From positions 62,001 to 126,000 of the forward strand of contig NZ_BATQ01000175.1 in NCBI RefSeq assembly GCF_000739635.1: DNA of 64,000 nt, read 5' to 3'. Made by a program: the position numbers and the translations under genes. Below, piece after piece: positions 35,045 through 45,876 of this stretch. Source of the stretch: Verrucomicrobium sp. BvORR034. GTDB lineage: Bacteria; Verrucomicrobiota; Verrucomicrobiia; Verrucomicrobiales; Verrucomicrobiaceae. Under the pieces are notes generated by a model. It searched no databases, was not told the DNA's origin, and saw nothing but the letters and a program-made list of their open reading frames with translations. Positions within the stretch are counted from its first letter, which is position 1. Each line of letters begins with the position of its first letter.

Positions 35045-35108
35045 ACTCCATCACTCCATCACTCCATCACTCCATCACTCCATCACTCCATCACTCCATC
35101 ACTCCATC
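35045..35108. repeat. Octanucleotide tandem repeat, eight copies
   Basis: ACTCCATC repeated eight times without error. It runs into the 3' end of kdpE: the final codons and the TGA stop (35091-35093) are inside the repeat. Read on the minus strand it is GATGGAGT units, so the protein ends ..DGVME. Confidence 0.95.
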
Positions 35109-35798
35109 GACCGCCAGCAGCCGATACCCAATCCCCGGCTCATTGCGAATCTGCACACCTGCCGCGTCTCCCAACTTCTTGCGCAGATGCGCCACATACA
35201 CACGCAGATACTGGGCCTGCTCGGTGGCATTGGGACCCCACACTTCTTTCAAGATCTGCTTCTGCGTGATCACCCGTCCCACATTGCGGGCCAGCAGTTT
35301 GAGCAGATTGTACTCGATCGGGGTGAGTTTGAGCGTGCTCCCGGCCAGTTTCACCTCCCGCGCGGCGAGATCGAGGAATAACTTTCCAATTCTGAGAGAG
35401 GGCTCCTCAGGGGTCTTGCGACGCCTTTGAATGGCCGCCAGGCGGGCCGCCAGTTCTGCGGTGGAGAACGGCTTCGTGACATAATCGTCAGCACCATTCT
35501 CCAGCGCTGCCACCTTGGTGTCCTCCTGATCACGAACAGACAAAACAAGCACCGGAGTCTCGGTCCACTCGCGGAGTCGTTTGAGCACCTCCAGCCCGTC
35601 CATGTCCGGCAGCCCGAGATCGAGCAGGATGACATCGGGGTGACGGAACGCCGCCTCAGAGAGGCCGAGAGAGCCGGTCCCAGCTTCAAAGACCTCATAG
35701 CCTTTGCTTTCCAGCGCCAGACGCAGCAAGCGCCGCAGTTGCACCTCGTCATCCACCACGAGGGCACGACCTTGACAGGGTATCGGGGAAGCACTCAT
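35091..35798 (-). CDS. kdpE: KdpE response regulator
   Basis: 235 residues. Receiver domain 1-120 with VVDDE, phospho-acceptor in VILLDLGLPDMDGLEVL, VLSVRD and the Lys of YVTKPFS. An OmpR/PhoB winged helix follows (LTPIEYNLLKLLARNVGRVI, then YLRVYVAHLRKKLGD). It is expected to activate the kdp operon after phosphorylation by KdpD. Its start overlaps the kdpD stop by 4 bp. The C-terminal codons and stop come from a simple tandem repeat, so the last few residues may vary between strains. Confidence 0.93.
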   Translation of the reverse strand: MSASPIPCQGRALVVDDEVQLRRLLRLALESKGYEVFEAGTGSLGLSEAAFRHPDVILLDLGLPDMDGLEVLKRLREWTETPVLVLSVRDQEDTKVAALENGADDYVTKPFSTAELAARLAAIQRRRKTPEEPSLRIGKLFLDLAAREVKLAGSTLKLTPIEYNLLKLLARNVGRVITQKQILKEVWGPNATEQAQYLRVYVAHLRKKLGDAAGVQIRNEPGIGYRLLAVDGVME

Positions 35799-38446
35799 GG
35801 CAGTGAGGGGGTGGTCAGCGTTTCTACAGGCAGCGTGATGACAAACTCCGCCCCTCCCTCCGGCCGGTTCGAGGCTTTCACGTCACCATCCAGCGAGCGC
35901 AGTAATGCTCGAGAGATGGAAAGCCCCAGTCCCGTGCCTCCCGTAGGGCTGCCGGGTCCGCGGTAAAACTTCTGGAACACCTGCTCCTCCCCGTCCTGCG
36001 GCAGACCGGGGCCACGATCCGCGATGCGAACCGCAAGGGTGCCGCCATGCCGCAGCGCTGCATGAATCTCCAACGGGCTCCCGGCAGGCGTGTACACCGC
36101 CGCATTGTGCAGGATGTTTGCCAGGGCCTGGGAGAAAAGATTGGGGTCGAGCTTCACAGCGGGCAGGTCTGCAGGAATGTCCATCGCAAGCGGGTGATTG
36201 TCGAGCGCCTCCCCCACGGACTGGCGGACCTGCTCAATCAGGTCTCCCAGCAGGCACCACTCCCGCACCGGCTGGACCGCCGCGGATTCGATGCGTGTCA
36301 TCTGCAGCAGATGGTTCACGACCCGCTGCAACCGTGCCGAGGCAGTGTGAATCTCGTCAATGTACGGGTTCTTCACGCCTGACAGCCCCTCCAATGCCGC
36401 ATGAATGACGGCAAGAGGTGTCTTCAACTCATGCGACACGCTGTCCAGCAAAGTGCGCTGCAGGCGCTCGGACTGCTCCATCAACTCGGCATGGCGCACA
36501 GCGAAAATGAAGTGCTCTTTCTCAAGGACCAACGCCAATTGCAGCGCAAAAGCTTCAATGGACTGGCGCGTCGTGAAATCCATCAGGGCCTTTTCCGACA
36601 GGCGGACTCCAAAGACTCCCATCAAGGAAGTCGCCGTCTGCAACGGAAACCAGGTGGCTTCAGATTCGGGCAGCGTGTCCGTGAAGCGGCCGGCGGGCTG
36701 CTTGTTTTGATAGCTCCAGTTGATCACCCCCCACTCTTTAGCGCTTGGCTGAAGCGTGCTGGCCTCGTGCACCGCGTGCGGCAGCGAGCGATCCATGTTT
36801 CGCACCACCACAGCCGCGTCGGCACGCAGGAACTCATTGATAGCACGCAGCGCCTCTTCCAGACCACGATCTGGCTCCGCCGTGAGGGCGGCGCTCTGGG
36901 TGACTCGCAAGAGGGCGGCAGTCTGCCGCTGTCTCCGGCGTTCTGCCTGCTCGCGCTGCCGCAGCCGTGTCGTCAGATGTCCCATGCTGAAGGCGACAAT
37001 GAAGAACATCACGAACATGACGATGTCATGCGGCTGGTTGATGTGGAGCGTGAACCGGGGAGGGATGAAGAAATAATCCCAGGTGAAAGCACTCAGCGCG
37101 GCCATGGTCAGCACCGGCCCCCTGCCGAGGCGGACGGCGGCAACGATCACCGCCAGCAAGAAGACGAGACCTGCAAAAACATAACCTGTATAAGGGAGGA
37201 GCAGCCAGCCAAGCAGCGCCACGACAAAGGTGAGCCCCAAGGCCCAGACATACTCTGAAACCAGACCGACAGGAAGCTCAACGGCCTGCGGTTTGTCCGC
37301 CCTGGCTGAACCACTCGCCAGTTCCGGCCGCACCATGCAGACGTCAATGTCACCACTTTCCTGAACCAGCCGGTCAGACAAGGAGCGGTGCCACCATGCT
37401 CTGGGTCCTGGTTTTCCGACCACGATCTGGCTCACATTACGGTCTCGAGCGATCTGCAGCAGGGAAACCGCCACATCCTCTCCCGTGACGCTCACCACCT
37501 CCGCCCCCAACTTGCGGGCCAGCGCCAGAGATCTGGCCAGACGTTCTTCATCAGCCGGTGCCAGCCTTTTGGAGCCCTCCACCCACGCCACGATCCATGG
37601 GCAGGAAAGCCGGTTGGCCGCCCGGCGTGTCCAGCGGATGAGGCTCTCCGAGTACGGGCTGGGCCCCACTCCCACCAGCAGCCGGGCATTCGTCTTCCAG
37701 GCCGTGCTCACCCGCTTCGCCCGCCGGATGTCCTCCAGATCGCGATCCACATGCTCAGCCGTGAAACGCAGCGCCATTTCCCGCAGGGCCGTGAGGTTGC
37801 CTTCCTTGAAGAAGTTGGACACCGCCCACTCCGCACGGTCTCCAAGGTACACCTTGCCCGCCGCCATGCGGTCGAGCAGTTTTTCCACACTCAAATCCAC
37901 CAGCTCGATCTCGTGCGCATGATCAAGGATCGAGTCCGGCACGGTCTCTTGAATGGTGATGCCCGTGATCTGCCGGACGATGTCCACCTGGCTTTCGATG
38001 TGCTGGACATTCACCGTGGTGTAAACATCCAGCCCCGCTCCAATGAGCTCAATCACGTCCTGGTGTCGCTTGGAATGGCGGGAACCAGGGGCGTTGGTGT
38101 GCGCCAGTTCGTCCACCAGGACGAGTTCCGGACGCTGTTGAAGCACGGCATCCAGGTCAAACTCCTCCAGGGTGTGCCCGCGATGCTCGAGCATCTTGCG
38201 GGGAAGAACCTCCAGATCCTTGAGCAGCGCGGCCGTCTCCGACCTCCCGTGAGTTTCCACGACCCCCACGATCACCTTGACCCCTTCTTTCTGGCGCTGA
38301 CGTGCTGCCTGCAGCATCGCGTACGTCTTGCCAACGCCCGGGCACATGCCCAGGAAAATGAAGAGGCGTCCCAGACGGGACTCCCTTTCAGCACGCTGCA
38401 ACTCTGCCAAAAGGGCATCGGGATCTGGCCGGTTGGGTTCAGTCAT
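35795..38446 (-). CDS. kdpD: KdpD osmosensitive K+ sensor histidine kinase
   Basis: 883 residues. The N-terminal KdpD domain has the Walker A GMCPGVGKTYAML and VVETHGR, then a Usp-like domain (~235-370) and four transmembrane helices (~395-500). A GAF-like region precedes the dimerisation/phosphoacceptor helix (LDSVSHELKTPLAVIHAALE, with His) and an HATPase_c domain (LANILHNAAVYTP, ADRGPGLPQ, GTGLGLSISRALL). It senses low K+ or osmotic stress and phosphorylates KdpE. All modules look intact. Upstream lies a glycosyltransferase-like gene with only 15 bp between them. Confidence 0.95.
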   Translation of the reverse strand: MTEPNRPDPDALLAELQRAERESRLGRLFIFLGMCPGVGKTYAMLQAARQRQKEGVKVIVGVVETHGRSETAALLKDLEVLPRKMLEHRGHTLEEFDLDAVLQQRPELVLVDELAHTNAPGSRHSKRHQDVIELIGAGLDVYTTVNVQHIESQVDIVRQITGITIQETVPDSILDHAHEIELVDLSVEKLLDRMAAGKVYLGDRAEWAVSNFFKEGNLTALREMALRFTAEHVDRDLEDIRRAKRVSTAWKTNARLLVGVGPSPYSESLIRWTRRAANRLSCPWIVAWVEGSKRLAPADEERLARSLALARKLGAEVVSVTGEDVAVSLLQIARDRNVSQIVVGKPGPRAWWHRSLSDRLVQESGDIDVCMVRPELASGSARADKPQAVELPVGLVSEYVWALGLTFVVALLGWLLLPYTGYVFAGLVFLLAVIVAAVRLGRGPVLTMAALSAFTWDYFFIPPRFTLHINQPHDIVMFVMFFIVAFSMGHLTTRLRQREQAERRRQRQTAALLRVTQSAALTAEPDRGLEEALRAINEFLRADAAVVVRNMDRSLPHAVHEASTLQPSAKEWGVINWSYQNKQPAGRFTDTLPESEATWFPLQTATSLMGVFGVRLSEKALMDFTTRQSIEAFALQLALVLEKEHFIFAVRHAELMEQSERLQRTLLDSVSHELKTPLAVIHAALEGLSGVKNPYIDEIHTASARLQRVVNHLLQMTRIESAAVQPVREWCLLGDLIEQVRQSVGEALDNHPLAMDIPADLPAVKLDPNLFSQALANILHNAAVYTPAGSPLEIHAALRHGGTLAVRIADRGPGLPQDGEEQVFQKFYRGPGSPTGGTGLGLSISRALLRSLDGDVKASNRPEGGAEFVITLPVETLTTPSLP

Positions 38447-38461
38447 CAGAGTACGGGCGGA

Positions 38462-39904
38462 TCAGGTGGTTGACAGCAGACCGGGCTTGATGCGCTTGTT
38501 TTTAACACGGGTCTGCGGAAAGGGCTGTTTGTCTTTTTGATAATAGCAGATTTCCACGAGAGTCGGCCAGAGCTCGAGCGAGGCGTGGATCTGGCTGATG
38601 ACATCATCCACAATACGACTCACGTTCTGCTGGAAGAAGTCCGGCTCAAAACCATAGAACACTTTCGCCAGATTTTCTGCGAAGAGGTTGAGGGTGTGCT
38701 TGCGCTCAGGGTCCGCGGCCGATTCCGCAAAAGTCAGCACCCGGGAATGGACCGCCATGACCTTGCTCAGAATCTCCTGCGTATCCTCCAGGGTCACCTC
38801 CCCGTTGTAGCGGAACTTGATGCCCAAGTCGTCACGGTGGTACACGCTGTCCTTGATATTCTTCTTCAGCAGGCTGCAGAGCTCTTCGTTGAAGACCTCC
38901 ATGGCCAGCGGATTGCGCATGTAGTTGTTCTTCGTGTGGCGCTGCACCGCATCCACATGGGCCGCCGCCACTCCGGGCTGCTGAATCCAGAGACGGTAGA
39001 TGTAGTCCTCGAACCTGAGGCGGGTGGGGAAAAAGGGAGGCAGCCCCAGCCGGTTGTCATAGCCGGAGACGCCGCAGTCGATGCGCCAGTTCTTCTTGGT
39101 CACCACGGGGCGGAAGTTCACCAGGACGTACACGTCGTTCAGGGCATTGATGTCCGACTGTTCTTCATCGGCAAGAAACATCTCCACATAGTCGAGCGCA
39201 TCAATGTCGTTTGTCCCCGTGCGGTAGGTCTGGGCGATCTTCACCACCGACTCCCTCGGCAGGCGGCCGGGTTGGAGCATCAGGGAGTTCTCGCGGGAGA
39301 AAGTGCTGGTGGTGTTGGTCTCCAGGTCCATCGAGGTATCCACCAGCATCTCCCCCCGTTCGTAGTTCGCCGGCATCTGGCCCGCCTTCTTGCCCAGAGC
39401 ATCCTTGAACGCGGCCAGCAGGTCAAAGGACTTGCTGACGTAGCCGTTCTCCGAGGTCCGGCAGAGCTTGCCGCGGCAGACTTCGTTGGCCGCCAGGCTC
39501 TCCATGCTGTCCTCGATGAGCGCATCCGGCCGCATGTCGTCATCGGAGCTGATCAGATAGTGACCAAGCGTGTACATCAGCGTGAAATTCCGGTTCCCGC
39601 CATAGCTGGGCCGGAAGAGATTCCGCACCAGTGATTCAAGTTTTTTGTCACGCAGCTTGCGGTTCAGGAAACCAATGAACTCCTCCTTCTCCCTCGGCCC
39701 CACATAGAAGAGCTCGTTGGCGGTGCGGGTCTGCTCCAGGAGACTGTAGTATTTCTGGTGGGCAGCCAGGCTGGAGTCGTCGAAGACCAGCATCCGTGCG
39801 GCATGGCCGTTGCGCCAGAAGTTGTCGTCGTAGGCTTCGATGGTGGCGGCCACATCCCGTAATCGATAGGTGGGAATGGCGAAATGCGTCTGGGCAGAGT
39901 TCAT
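38462..39904 (-). CDS. Glycosyltransferase-like (GT-A fold) protein inside the kdp operon
   Basis: 480 residues, no signal peptide. The N-terminal part resembles a GT-A domain: FAIPTYRLRDVAATIEAYDD with ARMLVFDDSS (the first strand and the DD of a nucleotide-sugar site), then YLISSDDDMRPDALIEDSME, a DxD-type metal motif near residue 122. The C-terminal half is helical with no known motif. The link to GT-2-type transferases is by motif only. It sits 15 bp upstream of kdpD on the same strand and follows a hairpin-containing gap after kdpC2. Similarity to an established kdp component was not recognised, so its role in K+ transport or signalling is open. Confidence 0.65.
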   Translation of the reverse strand: MNSAQTHFAIPTYRLRDVAATIEAYDDNFWRNGHAARMLVFDDSSLAAHQKYYSLLEQTRTANELFYVGPREKEEFIGFLNRKLRDKKLESLVRNLFRPSYGGNRNFTLMYTLGHYLISSDDDMRPDALIEDSMESLAANEVCRGKLCRTSENGYVSKSFDLLAAFKDALGKKAGQMPANYERGEMLVDTSMDLETNTTSTFSRENSLMLQPGRLPRESVVKIAQTYRTGTNDIDALDYVEMFLADEEQSDINALNDVYVLVNFRPVVTKKNWRIDCGVSGYDNRLGLPPFFPTRLRFEDYIYRLWIQQPGVAAAHVDAVQRHTKNNYMRNPLAMEVFNEELCSLLKKNIKDSVYHRDDLGIKFRYNGEVTLEDTQEILSKVMAVHSRVLTFAESAADPERKHTLNLFAENLAKVFYGFEPDFFQQNVSRIVDDVISQIHASLELWPTLVEICYYQKDKQPFPQTRVKNKRIKPGLLSTT

Positions 39905-39977
39905 GTTAGTAGGCGATTCAACTTGGATGACGTGTCAGTGAGCATTGCAGTGCAATGGGATGTGCCCATGATGAGGC

Positions 39978-40020
39978 AATCCCGGGGCACCTCACGATCT
40001 GCGTGGGATGCCCCGGGATT
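39978..40020 (-). promoter_or_regulatory. Hairpin between kdpC-like gene and glycosyltransferase-like gene
   Basis: A 12-bp perfect stem, AATCCCGGGGCA at 39978-39989 with TGCCCCGGGATT at 40009-40020, with a 19-base loop and no U-tract. A second short GC-rich hairpin (CCGCCCTCAACAGGGCGG) lies at ~40029-40046. It may lower read-through or stabilise the upstream message so that kdp transporter genes are expressed above kdpDE (inference). Confidence 0.55.
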
Positions 40021-40059
40021 GTCCCGACCGCCCTCAACAGGGCGGCGGGCGGGCTTCCC

Positions 40060-40485
40060 CTACGGCAGTTCGTCCAGGGCCAGATTGAGACGCCAGACAT
40101 TCACCCGGTCGGTGCCAATGGCACGCGAGGGTGGCGGCTCTGTGAGATTGTCGATGAGTGCCTCCGCTCTTTTGATGCCCTCAGCATTCAGGCCGCGCTC
40201 TTTGGCAATCCCCTCGATCTGCTGGCGCGCCTGGAAGGAGCTCAGATAGGGGTGGGGTGTTTCCACAGTGGACTCACCGAGTTTGAAGTAACGTGGCCCG
40301 GTCAACTTCTCGGCCAGGAGCTGTTCCGCCACGACTTTCTCGTCGGGAATGGAGAGCTTTTTGCCCTCGCGGTGGCTTCGCATAAAATGGGCGACACCCG
40401 AGAAGAAGAGGAACAGCACCACCAGTGCGACGGCATAGAGGCCGAGGATGCGAATCGGAAAATTGTCGTTAACCTGGGATTTCAT
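40060..40485 (-). CDS. Short KdpC-like membrane protein (second KdpC)
   Basis: 141 residues. One transmembrane helix at ~12-33. The C-terminal half aligns with KdpC: PHPYLSSFQARQQIEGIAKERGL matches the PHISP..A..Q..RVA.AR.L block, and the ending VNVWRLNLALDELP matches KdpC VNVLRLNRALEQLP. The central ~70 residues of normal KdpC, including the GSNLGPTS-type region, are absent. KdpC normally assists K+ and ATP binding in KdpFABC. The gene lies between kdpC and the glycosyltransferase-like gene, all on the same strand. It could be a diverged duplicate with a regulatory or accessory role; it is not a random remnant, as the frame is intact. Confidence 0.75.
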   Translation of the reverse strand: MKSQVNDNFPIRILGLYAVALVVLFLFFSGVAHFMRSHREGKKLSIPDEKVVAEQLLAEKLTGPRYFKLGESTVETPHPYLSSFQARQQIEGIAKERGLNAEGIKRAEALIDNLTEPPPSRAIGTDRVNVWRLNLALDELP

Positions 40486-40511: not shown

Positions 40512-40539
40512 GGCGGGCCCGGCCTGAACCAGGCCCGCC
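40512..40539 (-). promoter_or_regulatory. GC-rich hairpin between kdpC and kdpC-like gene
   Basis: GGCGGGCC at 40512-40519 pairs with GGCCCGCC at 40532-40539. No U-tract follows, so it is more likely an RNA-processing or stability element than a full terminator. Confidence 0.5.
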
Positions 40540-41174: not shown

Positions 41175-43211
41175 TCAAGCGAGGTTAAGAGTCGTGATGA
41201 TGACGTCGATGGCCTTGATGCCTGCAAAGGGCAGGAGGAGGCCGCCGAGTCCGTAGATGCAAAGGTTGCGCTGGAGCACTGCCACCGCACCGACCGGGCG
41301 GTATTGCACCCCACGCAAGGCCAATGGGATCAGGGCAATGATGATGAGCGCGTTGAAGATGATGGCGCTCAGGATCGCGCTCTGTGGCGAGGCCAGGCCC
41401 ATGATGTTGAGCGGGGCAATGGCCGGGAAGGTGACCATGAGCATGGCAGGAATGATGGCGAAGTACTTCGCCACGTCGTTGGCGATGCTGAAGGTGGTCA
41501 GCGAGCCGCGGGTCATGAGGAGTTGTTTCCCAATCTCCACGATCTCGATGAGCTTCGTGGGGTTGCTGTCCAGATCCACCATGTTGCCGGCTTCACGGGC
41601 GGCCTGGGTGCCGGTGTTCATGGCCACGCCCACATCCGCCTGGGCCAGGGCCGGGGCATCATTGGTGCCGTCCCCGGTCATGGCCACCAGGTGACCCTGC
41701 GCCTGCTCGGAGCGAATGCGCTTGAGCTTGTCCTCCGGTGTGGCCTGGGCCATGAAGTCATCCACGCCCGCTTCCGCGGCAATGGCGGCGGCGGTCATTG
41801 GATTGTCCCCGGTGATCATCACCGTGCGGATGCCCATCTTGCGCAGTTGGGCAAAGCGTTCCTTGATACCGCCTTTCACCACGTCCTTCAGCTCCACCAC
41901 GCCCAACACCTTCTGACCATCCACCACCACGAGGGGCGTGCGACCCGCGCGAGCGGCGGCTTCCACGGTCTTCTCCACCTCGGCGGGATAAAGACCGCCC
42001 TTCTCCTCCACATAGCGCCGGACGGACTCTGCCGCACCTTTGCGCACGCTCCGCCCGTCAATGTCCACCCCGCTCATGCGCGTCTGCGCCGTGAAGGGGA
42101 TGAAGGTGGCATGGGGCTCCGCCACCTCACGACCACGGATGTTGAACTTCTCCTTGGCGAGCACCACGATGCTGCGACCTTCTGGAGTTTCGTCCGCCAG
42201 GGAGGCCAGTTGCGCGGCGTCCGCCAACTCCTGTTCGGTGACTCCGGCAGCAGGGCGGAAGTCCGAAGCCATGCGGTTGCCGATGGTGATGGTGCCCGTC
42301 TTGTCGAGCAGCAACACATCAATGTCCCCGGCAGCCTCCACGGCACGACCACTGGTGGCCATGACATTGCGACGGATGAGGCGGTCGATGCCGCTGATGC
42401 CGATGGCGCTCAGCAGTCCACCGATGGTGGTGGGGATGAGGCACACCAGAAGGGCGATGAGCACCGGGATGGTGAAGTTCGTGCCAGCATAGATGCCGAA
42501 GGGTTTCAACGTCACCACCACCAGCAGGAAGATCAGCGTGAGGGCCGAGAGCAGAATGGTCAGGGCAATCTCATTGGGTGTCTTCTGGCGCTTGGCCCCT
42601 TCCACCATCGAGATCATGCGATCCAGGAAGGTATTGCCCTTCTCCGACGTGATCCGGATGATGATGCGGTCACTGATGACCCGTGTGCCGCCGGTGACGG
42701 CACTGCGATCACCACCGCTTTCACGAATGACCGGGGCAGACTCGCCGGTGATGGCTGCCTCGTCCACGCTGGCAATGCCTTCGATCACCTCGCCATCAGC
42801 AGGGATGACGTCGCCGGCGTCACACACCACGACATCACCTTTTTGCAACTCAGGAGCAGGCACCCGCTCCTCTTTGCCGCTACGCACACGGCGGGCGACG
42901 GTATCCTTGCGAGCTTTGCGCAGGGAATCGGCCTGAGCCTTGCCGCGGCCTTCAGCCATGGCCTCCGCGAAGTTGGCAAACAGGACAGTGAACCAGAGCC
43001 AGATGGCCAGCTGGACGATAAAGAAGCGGTCCACCGGGGCGGTGAAGATGCTCACAGTGGTCAACACCGCACCAACCAGCGTCACGAACATGACGGGGTT
43101 TTTGATCATCAGGCGCGGATCGAGTTTCTTGAACGACTCTCCAATCGCCGGACCGGCGATCTTCCAGTCAAAGAGGGAGGGAACTTGATGGGACATGGTA
43201 GTAGGAAACAA
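41175..43211 (-). CDS. kdpB: KdpB, P-type K+ ATPase catalytic subunit
   Basis: 678 residues. The phosphorylation site [14 protein letters not shown] is at ~300-313, with the actuator motif [10 protein letters not shown], nucleotide-binding [19 protein letters not shown] and the usual membrane helices (first at ~40-85). KdpB hydrolyses ATP and is coupled to K+ uptake through KdpA. Gap to kdpA is 5 bp. All catalytic motifs are present. Confidence 0.97.
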
Positions 43212-43216
43212 ATGGT

Positions 43217-45028
43217 TTAGAAGAGCTGGCCCTTGAGCATCAGGAAGTGCTCAACAATGGGGCCCAGGGCGAGGGCAGGAAGGAAGTTGAGAGCGCCGAC
43301 GAGCAGCACCGTGCCGATCAGCAGGATGGTAAAGGTCACTCCAGCCACCGGGAACGTGCCCACACTGGGAGGTGCGATTTTCTTCTGCACCAGCGAGCCC
43401 GCCAGCGCCATGATCGGGATGATCATGAGGAACCGTCCAATGAGCATCGCAAAGCCCAGCGTGACGTTGTAATGCGGATCCCCGTTGGCAGGATTCGCAG
43501 TGAGGCCGCCAAAGGCACTGCCGTTGTTGGCGGTGGTGGAGCTGTAGGCATAGAGCATTTCGCTGAAGCCGTGCGGGCCACTGTTGTTGAGCCCGGCCAG
43601 CCCCCAGTCACTCACGGATGCCCAGGCGGTGAAGCCGAGGATGGAGAGGCACAGGACCAGCAGGGAGAGCATGGCCATCTTCACATCGTAGGCCTGGATC
43701 TTTTTGCCGAGGTATTCAGGCGTGCGACCCACCATCAGTCCGGCGATGAACACGGCGAGCACTACAAAGACGAGCATGCCATAGAGCCCGGCACCCACAC
43801 CGCCGATGACCACCTCACCCAGTTCCATCATGAACAAGGGCACCAGGCCGCCGATGGCGGTGAAGGAGTCATGCATCGCGTTGACCGCACCACAAGAAGC
43901 CGCCGTGGTGACCGTGGCGAAGAGGGAGGAGTTGAAGATGCCGAAGCGCACCTCCTTGCCCTCCATGTTGCCATCGCCCAATACGACGCCGAGCCCCTGG
44001 TGAATGGGATTGCCCCGAGACTCCGCCCACCAGCAGGTGATCACACCTGCCAGAAAGAGGACCATCATCGCACCCCATACGGACCAACCGTGCGCCTGGT
44101 TCTTGGTCATGCGGCCGAGGTAGTAAGTCAGCCCGCTGCCAATCGCAAAGATGGAGAGCATCTGCAGGAAGTTGGAGAGCGGAGTGGGGTTCTCATAGGG
44201 ATGCGCCGCATTGGCGTTCACAAAACCACCGCCGTTCGTGCCCAGCATCTTGATCGCCACCTGGGAGGCCATGGGCCCCTGGGCGATGACCTGGTCGGTG
44301 ATCACCTGCTCTTCCATGACGGGTTTCCCATCAGCGCCAAGCACCGTTTCACCGGCATCATTCTTCTTTTCCACCTGCACCTTCTGCGGCTCCAGAAGCG
44401 TGGCCGTGTCATACGGTTTGAAGTTCTGGATCATGCCCTGGGAGACCAGGAAGATCGCTAACACCAGACTTAAAGGCAGCAGGAGGTAGTAGGTGGATCG
44501 AACCAAATCGACCCAGAAATTCCCCAGCACACCTGCCGAATGGCGTGTGATGCCACGAACGAGGGCGGCGGCAATGGCAATCCCGGTGGCGGCCGAGGTG
44601 AAGTTATGCAACGTCAACCCCACCATCTGGGAGAAGTAGGACATTGTCCCCTCCCCGCCGTAGCTCTGCCAGTTGGTGTTGGTGGTGAAACTGATGGCCG
44701 TGTTGAAAGCCAGATGATGGTTCAACGGACCGAGGCCCTGCGGATTGAAGGGCAGCAAATGCTGCAGGCGCAGGATCGCGTAGGTCAGCGCACAACCAGC
44801 CAGGCTGAAGAGCAGCATGGCCACGGTGTATTGCTTCCAGTTCTGCTCCCGGGTGCGGTCCACGCCCATGACGGCGTAGGTCAGCCGCTCCAGCGGCCCC
44901 ACCACAGGGTCCAGCAGCGTTTTGCCGTTCGCATCCAGCACCTTTGTGAGATAGATGCCCAGCGGCTTGGTAATGAGGGCCAGCAGCCCGACGAAGAGGG
45001 CAAGCTGAAGCCAGTCTGATGTATGCAT
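43217..45028 (-). CDS. kdpA: KdpA, potassium-binding and translocating subunit
   Basis: 603 residues with about ten transmembrane helices. Selectivity-filter-like segments are seen at [40 protein letters not shown] and [20 protein letters not shown]. It starts 34 bp downstream of the KdpF peptide stop. Forms the K+ pore of KdpFABC. Confidence 0.97.
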
Positions 45029-45062: not shown

Positions 45063-45146
45063 TTAGAACTTTTGCGGCCGGATCATGGCCGTGAAGAGGT
45101 AGATGAAGAGGAGCAGCGCAACGCCGCCCACGAGGATGGTTTCCAT
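45063..45146 (-). CDS. kdpF: KdpF membrane peptide
   Basis: 27 residues beginning [14 protein letters not shown] and ending MIRPQKF, a single hydrophobic helix with a short basic C-terminus. Length, hydrophobicity, the C-terminal RPxxF and position directly before kdpA match KdpF, the small stabilising subunit of the complex. Confidence 0.88.
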
Positions 45147-45253: not shown

Positions 45254-45876
45254 GGGTGGTTCCAGAGTGAAAGTTTCATTGGAACCACGATCTTCCACCC
45301 GCCCCGGCCCTCGAATTAAAAGGGGGCCAGGAGGTGTTAAAAAAGTGTTAAAACGGGGACATTGTGCGCTCCGGCCTTCGACGCCGACAGCCCCCGGAGG
45401 TCAATCAACCTGTACACTCCCATCATCTGGCGACGAAGTCGCTGTGGAGTGCGTGCGTGAAACGAAGCCCATCCCTCCGTTCGCGCCACATCGCCATCAG
45501 CCCGACACAGGACTCCCTAAAGCGGCGATTCTCGCCGCACTCCCAAAGATGCTTCGCATCCAGGTGGTGGGCATCCATTCTGGCCTGCCATTCGTTCACC
45601 CTCCAATATCGCAAGCTCCCTGAAGCAATCTGTCCCCACCACTCCCATCACCTGACGGCGCAGCCGTTTTGGGACTGCGGTGAGCATCACCGCTTTCGCT
45701 ACGCCTTGTGAGGTTCGATCTCCTTACATCCTCCAGCGAAACCCCGCTCAAACTCCAAACCGAACACGAAGAACCCTCCCCCAGGCGCTCGCGCCGCCTA
45801 AACCAGCGGAGCGCCTCAACAGCCCGCTTGCGGGCCCCTCAACCATCCCGCTTTGCGGGAGCGCCTAAACCTCGCC
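45254..45876. repeat. Repeat field upstream of kdp: three REP-like copies plus small hairpins
   Basis: No gene in these 623 bases. Copies of one ~50-bp palindrome-rich element (core CACCTGGCG.CGAAGCCGCTGTGG..TGCG..GTGAAGCGCCGCTTTCG) lie at ~45425-45467 (plus), 45519-45571 (minus) and 45647-45703 (plus). The same family surrounds the frameshifted RAYT at 59-60.2 kb. The remaining 45770-45870 stretch holds short hairpins (CCCGCTTGCGGG, CCCGCTTTGCGGG) with the word GAGCGCCT repeated. Confidence 0.75.
45333..45353 (-). promoter_or_regulatory. Candidate KdpE operator: 11-bp-spaced direct repeat
   Basis: On the minus strand TTTTAACAC occurs twice with an 11-base period (45344-45352 and 45333-45341), ~80-100 bases upstream of the first kdp peptide. 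AT-rich direct repeats about one helical turn apart are the known form of KdpE-type sites (E. coli TTTATA...TTTACA). Sequence match is only general, so the call is by position and form. Confidence 0.4.

Follow-up and report, generated by a model that had tools for sequence, protein, structure and literature searches.

The window, the 64-kb stretch of DNA that was analysed, carries a complete kdp cluster on the minus strand. In the direction of transcription it comprises two small hydrophobic ORFs, kdpA, kdpB, kdpC, a truncated kdpC paralog termed KdpC2, a gene termed X480, kdpD and kdpE, together with the following features:

45333..45353, minus strand: KdpE-type box TTTTAACACTTTTTTAACACC, with 3/19 mismatches to the E. 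coli KdpE site and a leave-one-out score of 34.4 bits
45170..45253, minus strand: small hydrophobic ORF MTDLLYIAAFTGFFLASGFYIRFCEKL, 5' of the kdpF-like ORF, recognised by reading the sequence
45063..45146, minus strand: small kdpF-like ORF, 27 aa, the likeness judged by eye from the sequence
43217..45028, minus strand: kdpA, 603 aa, with a 47-residue loop; PF03814, above the TIGR00680 cut-off
41175..43211, minus strand: kdpB, P-type ATPase subunit, TTG start listed; PF00122 and PF00702
40566..41174, minus strand: kdpC, full length, TTG start listed with an ATG 3 codons in; PF02669 at E=3e-69, above the TIGR00681 and NF001454 cut-offs
40512..40539, no strand given: hairpin in the kdpC/KdpC2 gap, 11-nt arms, 91% complementary; z of the gap -3.3
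40060..40485, minus strand: KdpC2, truncated KdpC paralog, 141 aa, ATG start, with a hydrophobic helix at residues 13-31, LLAEKLTGPRYF at 56-67 and a KdpC C-terminal domain at 79-140
39977..40021, no strand given: hairpin in the KdpC2/X480 gap, 20-nt arms, 90% complementary; z of the gap -4.7
38462..39904, minus strand: X480, 480 aa, between KdpC2 and kdpD, with no significant family match
35795..38446, minus strand: kdpD, sensor kinase; PF02702 at E=1.3e-91
35091..35798, minus strand: kdpE, response regulator; PF00072 and PF00486

The spacing between kdpC and KdpC2 in the window is 80 nt. Hairpins in the gaps flanking KdpC2 were also observed in genome G003, and another form of them in G002; they are possibly RNA processing sites or dispersed repeats.

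Relation of KdpC2 to KdpC

KdpC is a periplasmically oriented single-helix subunit of KdpFABC. An earlier note, made from the letters of the window, had described an intact 141-residue ORF after kdpC and had read it as a KdpC-like protein. The ORF was borne out, and the likeness was confirmed by a significant Pfam match, in which residues 79-139 of KdpC2 align with positions 125-182 of the PF02669 profile (E=2.7e-13; 50.5 bits, gathering score 24.1). The window's genome contains two PF02669 matches, kdpC and KdpC2, and the two adjoining proteins share 34% identity over 64 aa in BLASTP (E=2e-8). All 14 KdpC2 members tested matched PF02669 at E<=0.01, and a profile-profile comparison of 21 KdpC2 copies with KdpC from the same genomes gave a probability of 98.3%. 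As judged from these sequence comparisons, KdpC2 is a real gene and is homologous to KdpC.

The profile alignment pairs the (S/T)GP.YF segment of KdpC2 with FTG..YF of KdpC and then resumes at the C-terminal domain, leaving 54 KdpC columns within RPSA...SGLDP unmatched. The deletion therefore covers about 54 residues and not the ~70 that the earlier note had estimated, and alignments confirmed that the central KdpC region RPSA...SGLDPH is absent from KdpC2. The rest of that description, a protein keeping both ends of KdpC, held for the C-terminal block, which is a domain of ~62 residues, and for the presence of a hydrophobic N-terminal segment, but homology of the predicted helix at 13-31 to the KdpC helix was not demonstrable. 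All 21 copies possess a hydrophobic 19-residue window near the N-terminus (mean hydropathy 1.35-2.83). The lowest value belongs to the copy in G227, in which the segment terminates in LASC, a lipoprotein-type box. The charges flanking residues 13-31 of the window's KdpC2 do not clearly favour an N-in orientation, which is likelier in genus g25.

KdpC and KdpC2 have in common the ~62-residue C-terminal domain, the (S/T)G..YF block, an N-terminal hydrophobic segment and a place in the kdp operon. KdpC2 differs in lacking the ~54 central residues, including the RPSA...SNLGPTS...SGLDPH stretch, in having 3 residues inserted into the helical hairpin of its C-terminal domain, and, in most copies, in motifs of its own, PDEK before the block and PSR.VG..R.N in the domain. 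It also accompanies a full KdpC in all 20 genomes in which it was found, and it is not restricted to the kdp operon. KdpF, an accessory subunit of the pump, is likewise a small membrane-anchored product of the kdp operon, from which KdpC2 is distinguished by a predicted extracytoplasmic domain of KdpC descent.

An AlphaFold2 model of KdpC2 alone, built from a two-row alignment (the window and locus L013) and unreliable in the linker part, has a mean pLDDT of 65, with the blocks within 81-140 at pLDDT 65-80. Its C-terminal domain is arranged as beta-alpha-alpha-beta-alpha. When the C-terminal part was compared with the PDB by Foldseek, the top 7 rows were KdpC chains (prob 0.97-1.00, E 0.01-0.034), and no row of the search with the KdpC2 model reached an E of 0.001. 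KdpC also came first in the VIA-align list (6hrb_C, Z 6.1, 68 residues), with an unrelated chain at Z 5.8. The predicted C-terminal fold matches that of KdpC; because the Z margin is thin, the fold argument rests on the sequence profiles, in which the KdpC2 profile matched PDB 5mrw_C at E=5e-9.

The earlier note had suggested that the protein could replace KdpC. Membership of the same family and gene cluster speaks for a substitute for KdpC in KdpFABC under some condition, but all 20 genomes with KdpC2 retain a full-length KdpC, which argues that KdpC2 does not replace it. The loss of the ~54-residue middle argues in the same direction, as do scores below every NCBIfam KdpC cut-off (29.8 bits against 152.55 for TIGR00681; 42.8 bits, the best, against 178 for NF001454). 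We therefore regard substitution as highly improbable.

Distribution and constraint

A search of 386 sampled genomes of the order with a 14-row profile (E<=1e-12) gave 21 copies of KdpC2, in 20 genomes. Of the five genera concerned, three belong to the family of the window and two to another; a 6-row profile detected the gene in 10 of the 68 genomes of the window's family, and genus g25 has it in 6 of 18. The close relative Verrucomicrobium sp. BvORR106 carries a KdpC2 that is 70% identical, and a scan of genome contigs gave one locus, L013. Two phylum-wide samples of 387 genomes yielded no full-length match outside the order: such matches came from the order's own G000, G227, G293 and G349, and rows that cover no more than roughly positions 76-142 are ordinary KdpC. 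A plasmid collection gave three ordinary kdpC genes.

In a tree of 85 C-terminal domains, the 21 KdpC2 copies form one clade (support 99/97), beyond which the tree resolves little because it is based on only 57 columns. Nineteen of the copies are located between kdpC and kdpD. Their distance from kdpC is -4 nt, an overlap, in 5 cases, 4-80 nt in 13 and 2418 nt in one. Among 12 KdpC2-less relatives with a readable kdpC-kdpD junction, kdpD starts no more than ~20 nt after kdpC in nine, and ~790-900 nt separate the two genes in G008, G054 and G024.

Selection on KdpC2 was examined through Nei-Gojobori estimates of dN/dS, in which the more distant pairs are near saturation. The values for KdpC2 and KdpC were 0.124 and 0.121 in the pair G000/G003 and 0.145 and 0.101 in G004/G014. 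In genus g8 they were 0.29-0.48 for KdpC2 versus 0.04-0.14 for KdpC, indicating weaker constraint on KdpC2 there. KdpC2 is therefore selectively maintained, more loosely in g8. The survey of related kdp operons thus found the gene in relatives, and the single clade within the KdpC family, the position of 19 of the 21 copies and the purifying selection in two genera lend support to the earlier proposal of a duplicate KdpC reduced to its ends, including the option of an adapter.

The relaxed constraint in g8 might also suggest a remnant of a kdpC duplication that has no present function and is kept by chance. A 4-residue gap in the aligned C-terminal domain of the G448 copy would fit such a relic, as would the absence of KdpC2 from 23 of 30 kdpC-bearing relatives, in which the pump therefore works without it. 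We nevertheless consider a relic very unlikely, since all 21 ORFs are open and contain GP.YF, a 14-row alignment has 15 invariant columns, dN/dS is 0.12-0.15 in the g1 and g2 pairs, and a copy of KdpC2 stands at kup with a KdpE-type box, as described below.

Two further candidates were rejected as KdpC2. G413:C212 is a false match that looks by eye like a band-7 protein, and G271:C12 is a short KdpC piece that still bears DPHIS and lies beside kdpDE without kdpAB in the 10.5 kb examined. The latter locus (L102), with kdpD, kdpE and the short KdpC piece only and no kdpA or kdpB match in that stretch, is apparently a decayed second kdp locus.

Among the matches listed in a search of open-licence PMC papers, none dealt with a truncated or second KdpC, and the main text of a paper on essential genes of V. 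spinosum (PMC12283558) contains neither 'kdp' nor 'potassium'. KdpC2 belongs to a family that is already known; it is new as a KdpC paralog trimmed of its middle and with a portable genomic setting.

KdpE-type boxes and KdpC2 copies apart from kdpC

The E. coli KdpE site lies within CATTTTTATACTTTTTTTACACCCCGCCCG and has the half-sites TTTATA and TTTACA, as given in an excerpt of PMC3264566. The box at 45333-45353 is the one close match to this site in the 64 kb of the window, the next best having 6 mismatches. Promoter boxes of kdp operons were scored in 17 of the 20 KdpC2 genomes, with G448, G531 and G593 left out. In all 17 operons, the best-scoring position within 700 bp upstream is located ~242-356 bp before kdpA and reaches 18.9-34.4 bits in leave-one-out scoring. 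Positions of at least 18 bits numbered 25 among the 574,200 scored at the 17 kdp loci and four more loci, the kdp promoter boxes included. A whole-genome search of the 20 KdpC2 genomes with a consensus pattern, one mismatch allowed, detected 25 sites in 17 genomes versus 2 for the reversed pattern used as a control; G293, G227 and G601 had no site at this stringency. A predicted direct-repeat box of the KdpE type therefore lies upstream of the transcription unit, as expected for a member of the KdpE regulon.

Two copies of KdpC2, the second copy of G349 and the sole copy of G468, are located 5' of a co-oriented Kup gene on a contig other than the kdp contig, and the kdp operon of G468 has no KdpC2. 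The neighbouring gene product matches PF02705 at E=2e-177 and scores above the TIGR00794 cut-off and below that of NF008015. G349 and G468 have two kup genes each, and within their genus, in which 11 of 18 genomes have kup, they are the only two cases of KdpC2 at a kup locus (2 of 13 loci). At both of these loci a KdpE-type box of 30.5 bits lies 5' of KdpC2, at ~40 and ~85 bp, and the other 11 kup loci of the genus reach at most 12.7 bits anywhere. The pattern has just two sites in each of these genomes, one at the kdp promoter and one at the KdpC2-kup locus. The kup start follows the end of KdpC2 by ~270 and ~370 nt, gaps that make co-transcription uncertain. Both G349 copies group with the G468 copy in the tree, without strong support, and this grouping would fit a KdpC2 copy that moved out of the kdp operon in that lineage.

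A divergent gene occupies the 2418-nt gap between kdpC and KdpC2 in G593; its product is a homolog of KimA, a K+ importer (PDB 6s3k, E=3e-64; Pfam AA_permease_2; no NCBIfam match), and the sole pattern site in the genome is found ~125 bp 5' of KdpC2. With the sites in G349, G468 and G593, all three copies that stand apart from kdpC therefore have a predicted KdpE box of their own. G000, G002 and G003 have one extra one-mismatch site each, beside genes that were not recognised as K+ genes.

The Kup-side copies bear on the proposal of the earlier note that the protein might inhibit KdpFABC. A competitive inhibitor would take the place of KdpC during assembly and limit the amount of active KdpFABC, as a brake governed by the order of the genes and the coupling of their translation. 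KdpC2 keeps the C-terminal domain of KdpC without the core and is encoded in the same gene cluster, with a 4-nt overlap with kdpC in five genomes, all of which would suit such a brake. However, this explanation gives no reason to expect KdpC2 at kup behind a KdpE-type box of its own, nor a kdp operon without KdpC2 in G468, and the membrane helix, which a competitor of KdpC would be expected to need, is exchanged in G227 for a segment ending in a lipobox. We retain inhibition as a rival and think it unlikely.

Several other arrangements were noticed around these loci. In L137 (G531), a KdpE-type box lies directly 5' of kdpB, and a search of the 13 kb examined gave no kdpA, perhaps a split kdp operon. 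In genus g8, kup is located directly 5' of the kdp operon in five genomes with KdpC2 (L106-L109, L235) and also in at least two without it, for which the stretches examined reach only ~1 kb upstream. Because KdpC2-less genomes show this arrangement too, it is neutral evidence. In L106, L107, L109 and L110 of the same genus, kdpE is followed by a second KdpD-like match, of the C-terminal half only, and a KdpE-like match, with KdpE-type boxes nearby. G453 (L236) has a KdpE-type site directly 5' of kup.

Possible roles of KdpC2 and features of its neighbours

The role of KdpC itself in the pump is described as open in PMC8385062 and in PMC9651954, the latter stating that its 'function is still unknown'. 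KdpC has been likened in role to the beta subunits of Na+/K+- and H+-ATPases (PMC6255902, PMC8385062) and has been called a 'structural chaperone' (PMC12629597). Our best explanation, to which we give an even chance, is that KdpC2 is an exported, membrane-tethered accessory protein that is made via KdpD/KdpE at K+ limitation, acts beside KdpC and tunes K+ importers. As a KdpC paralog that has lost the ~54-residue middle, KdpC2 would be exported and, like KdpC, tethered on the periplasmic face of the inner membrane. The predicted boxes suggest that it is produced under K+ limitation through KdpD/KdpE. It would then work beside KdpC as a 'second beta-like' accessory protein that may dock on K+ importers from the periplasm, in most species on KdpFABC and in two on Kup, and may tune their stability, activity or apparent K+ affinity; docking and tuning are suggested by the roles proposed for KdpC in the papers cited above. 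An accessory protein fits better than a replacement or a dedicated KdpFABC inhibitor because KdpC coexists with KdpC2, the middle is lost, the anchor has been exchanged and the Kup setting has a KdpE-type box. If so, KdpC2 would resemble the ATPase beta subunits, in a comparison of role only, in having a single anchor and an extracytoplasmic domain beside a K+-handling pump; it would differ in being a second such subunit and in standing also beside Kup. Weighing against the accessory explanation are the looser constraint in g8, the 23 of 30 kdpC-bearing relatives that lack KdpC2, the ambiguous charges around the helix of the window's copy, the extra pattern sites in G000, G002 and G003, the distances from KdpC2 to kup, and a KdpA loop association that did not hold up, as described below.

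The best reading of the genomic settings is that KdpC2 is not tied to KdpFABC. A broader proposal, which we put forward only tentatively, is that KdpC2 is a portable periplasmic module, coupled through KdpE to unrelated importers (the P-type KdpFABC, Kup and perhaps KimA) and raising their performance at low K+. If this is true, the C-terminal domain of KdpC would have an independent role, one not confined to KdpA or KdpB. Should KdpC2 bind both Kup and KdpFABC, bacterial K+ importers from more than one family would have a common regulatory or affinity-tuning partner. As a KdpC without its middle, kept beside a complete KdpC, KdpC2 sets the C-terminal domain apart from the rest of KdpC, so that the role of this domain can be studied by itself.

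The KdpC2 contexts all share predicted KdpDE control, which keeps in play a different partner, KdpD. KdpC2 might be a periplasmic K+- or ion-responsive protein that signals to KdpD and in this way controls the expression of kdp, and of kup. All 19 kdp-linked copies are located between kdpC and kdpD, with X480 intervening before kdpD in five genomes, and a KdpE-type box is present at each of the three displaced copies, as such a partnership would lead one to expect. Two copies, however, lie on a contig other than that of kdpD and beside a transporter gene, and the periplasmic loops of KdpD are usually described as short. We consider a KdpD partner improbable, and the accessory protein acting on importers remains our preferred explanation.

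A docking site for KdpC2 on KdpA was considered and rejected. The KdpA loop before GPxASQxAIK has 47 residues in the window versus 18 in most relatives measured, and its lengths cluster by lineage. Loops of at least 28 residues occur in 15 of 17 operons with KdpC2 and in 8 of the 46 that have no KdpC2 alongside (Fisher 3.9e-7), a count that lacks G531 and G054, which yielded no KdpA, and G448, which was left out. The eight include the operon of G468, a genome that has its KdpC2 beside kup. The two short loops in KdpC2-bearing operons are those of G453 and of G593, the latter cut by the end of the sequence piece. In a KdpA tree built without the loop, only 3-4 independent pairs were available (sign test p 0.5-1), and the association fails this phylogenetic test. 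It was dropped because shared ancestry explains the loop pattern equally well. A strict dependence is also contradicted by G453, which has KdpC2 and a loop of 18 residues, by G035, which has no KdpC2 and a loop of 47, and by six further long-loop genomes without KdpC2 (G016, G068, G171, G192, G296 and G354).

X480 gave no significant match in Pfam, NCBIfam or PHROG and no PDB chain match, and its structure model has a mean pLDDT of 31. By eye, its N-terminal residues (IPTYRL...FDDSS...SSDDDM) may resemble those of a GT-A glycosyltransferase. X480 is present in 5 of the 386 genomes of the order, the window's own included, always between KdpC2 and kdpD, and the other four copies are 77-99% identical to that of the window. 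The cyanobacterium Trichormus variabilis has a homolog with 69.8% identity on its plasmid A, 3.7 kb 3' of kdpC. By homology and gene neighbourhood, X480 is a Kdp-linked gene common to different phyla. The Trichormus locus also contains a gene annotated as KdpF (L162:7337-7609), whose product has 90 aa, the last 24 of which match the KdpF model at 20.2 bits (cut-off 26.85).
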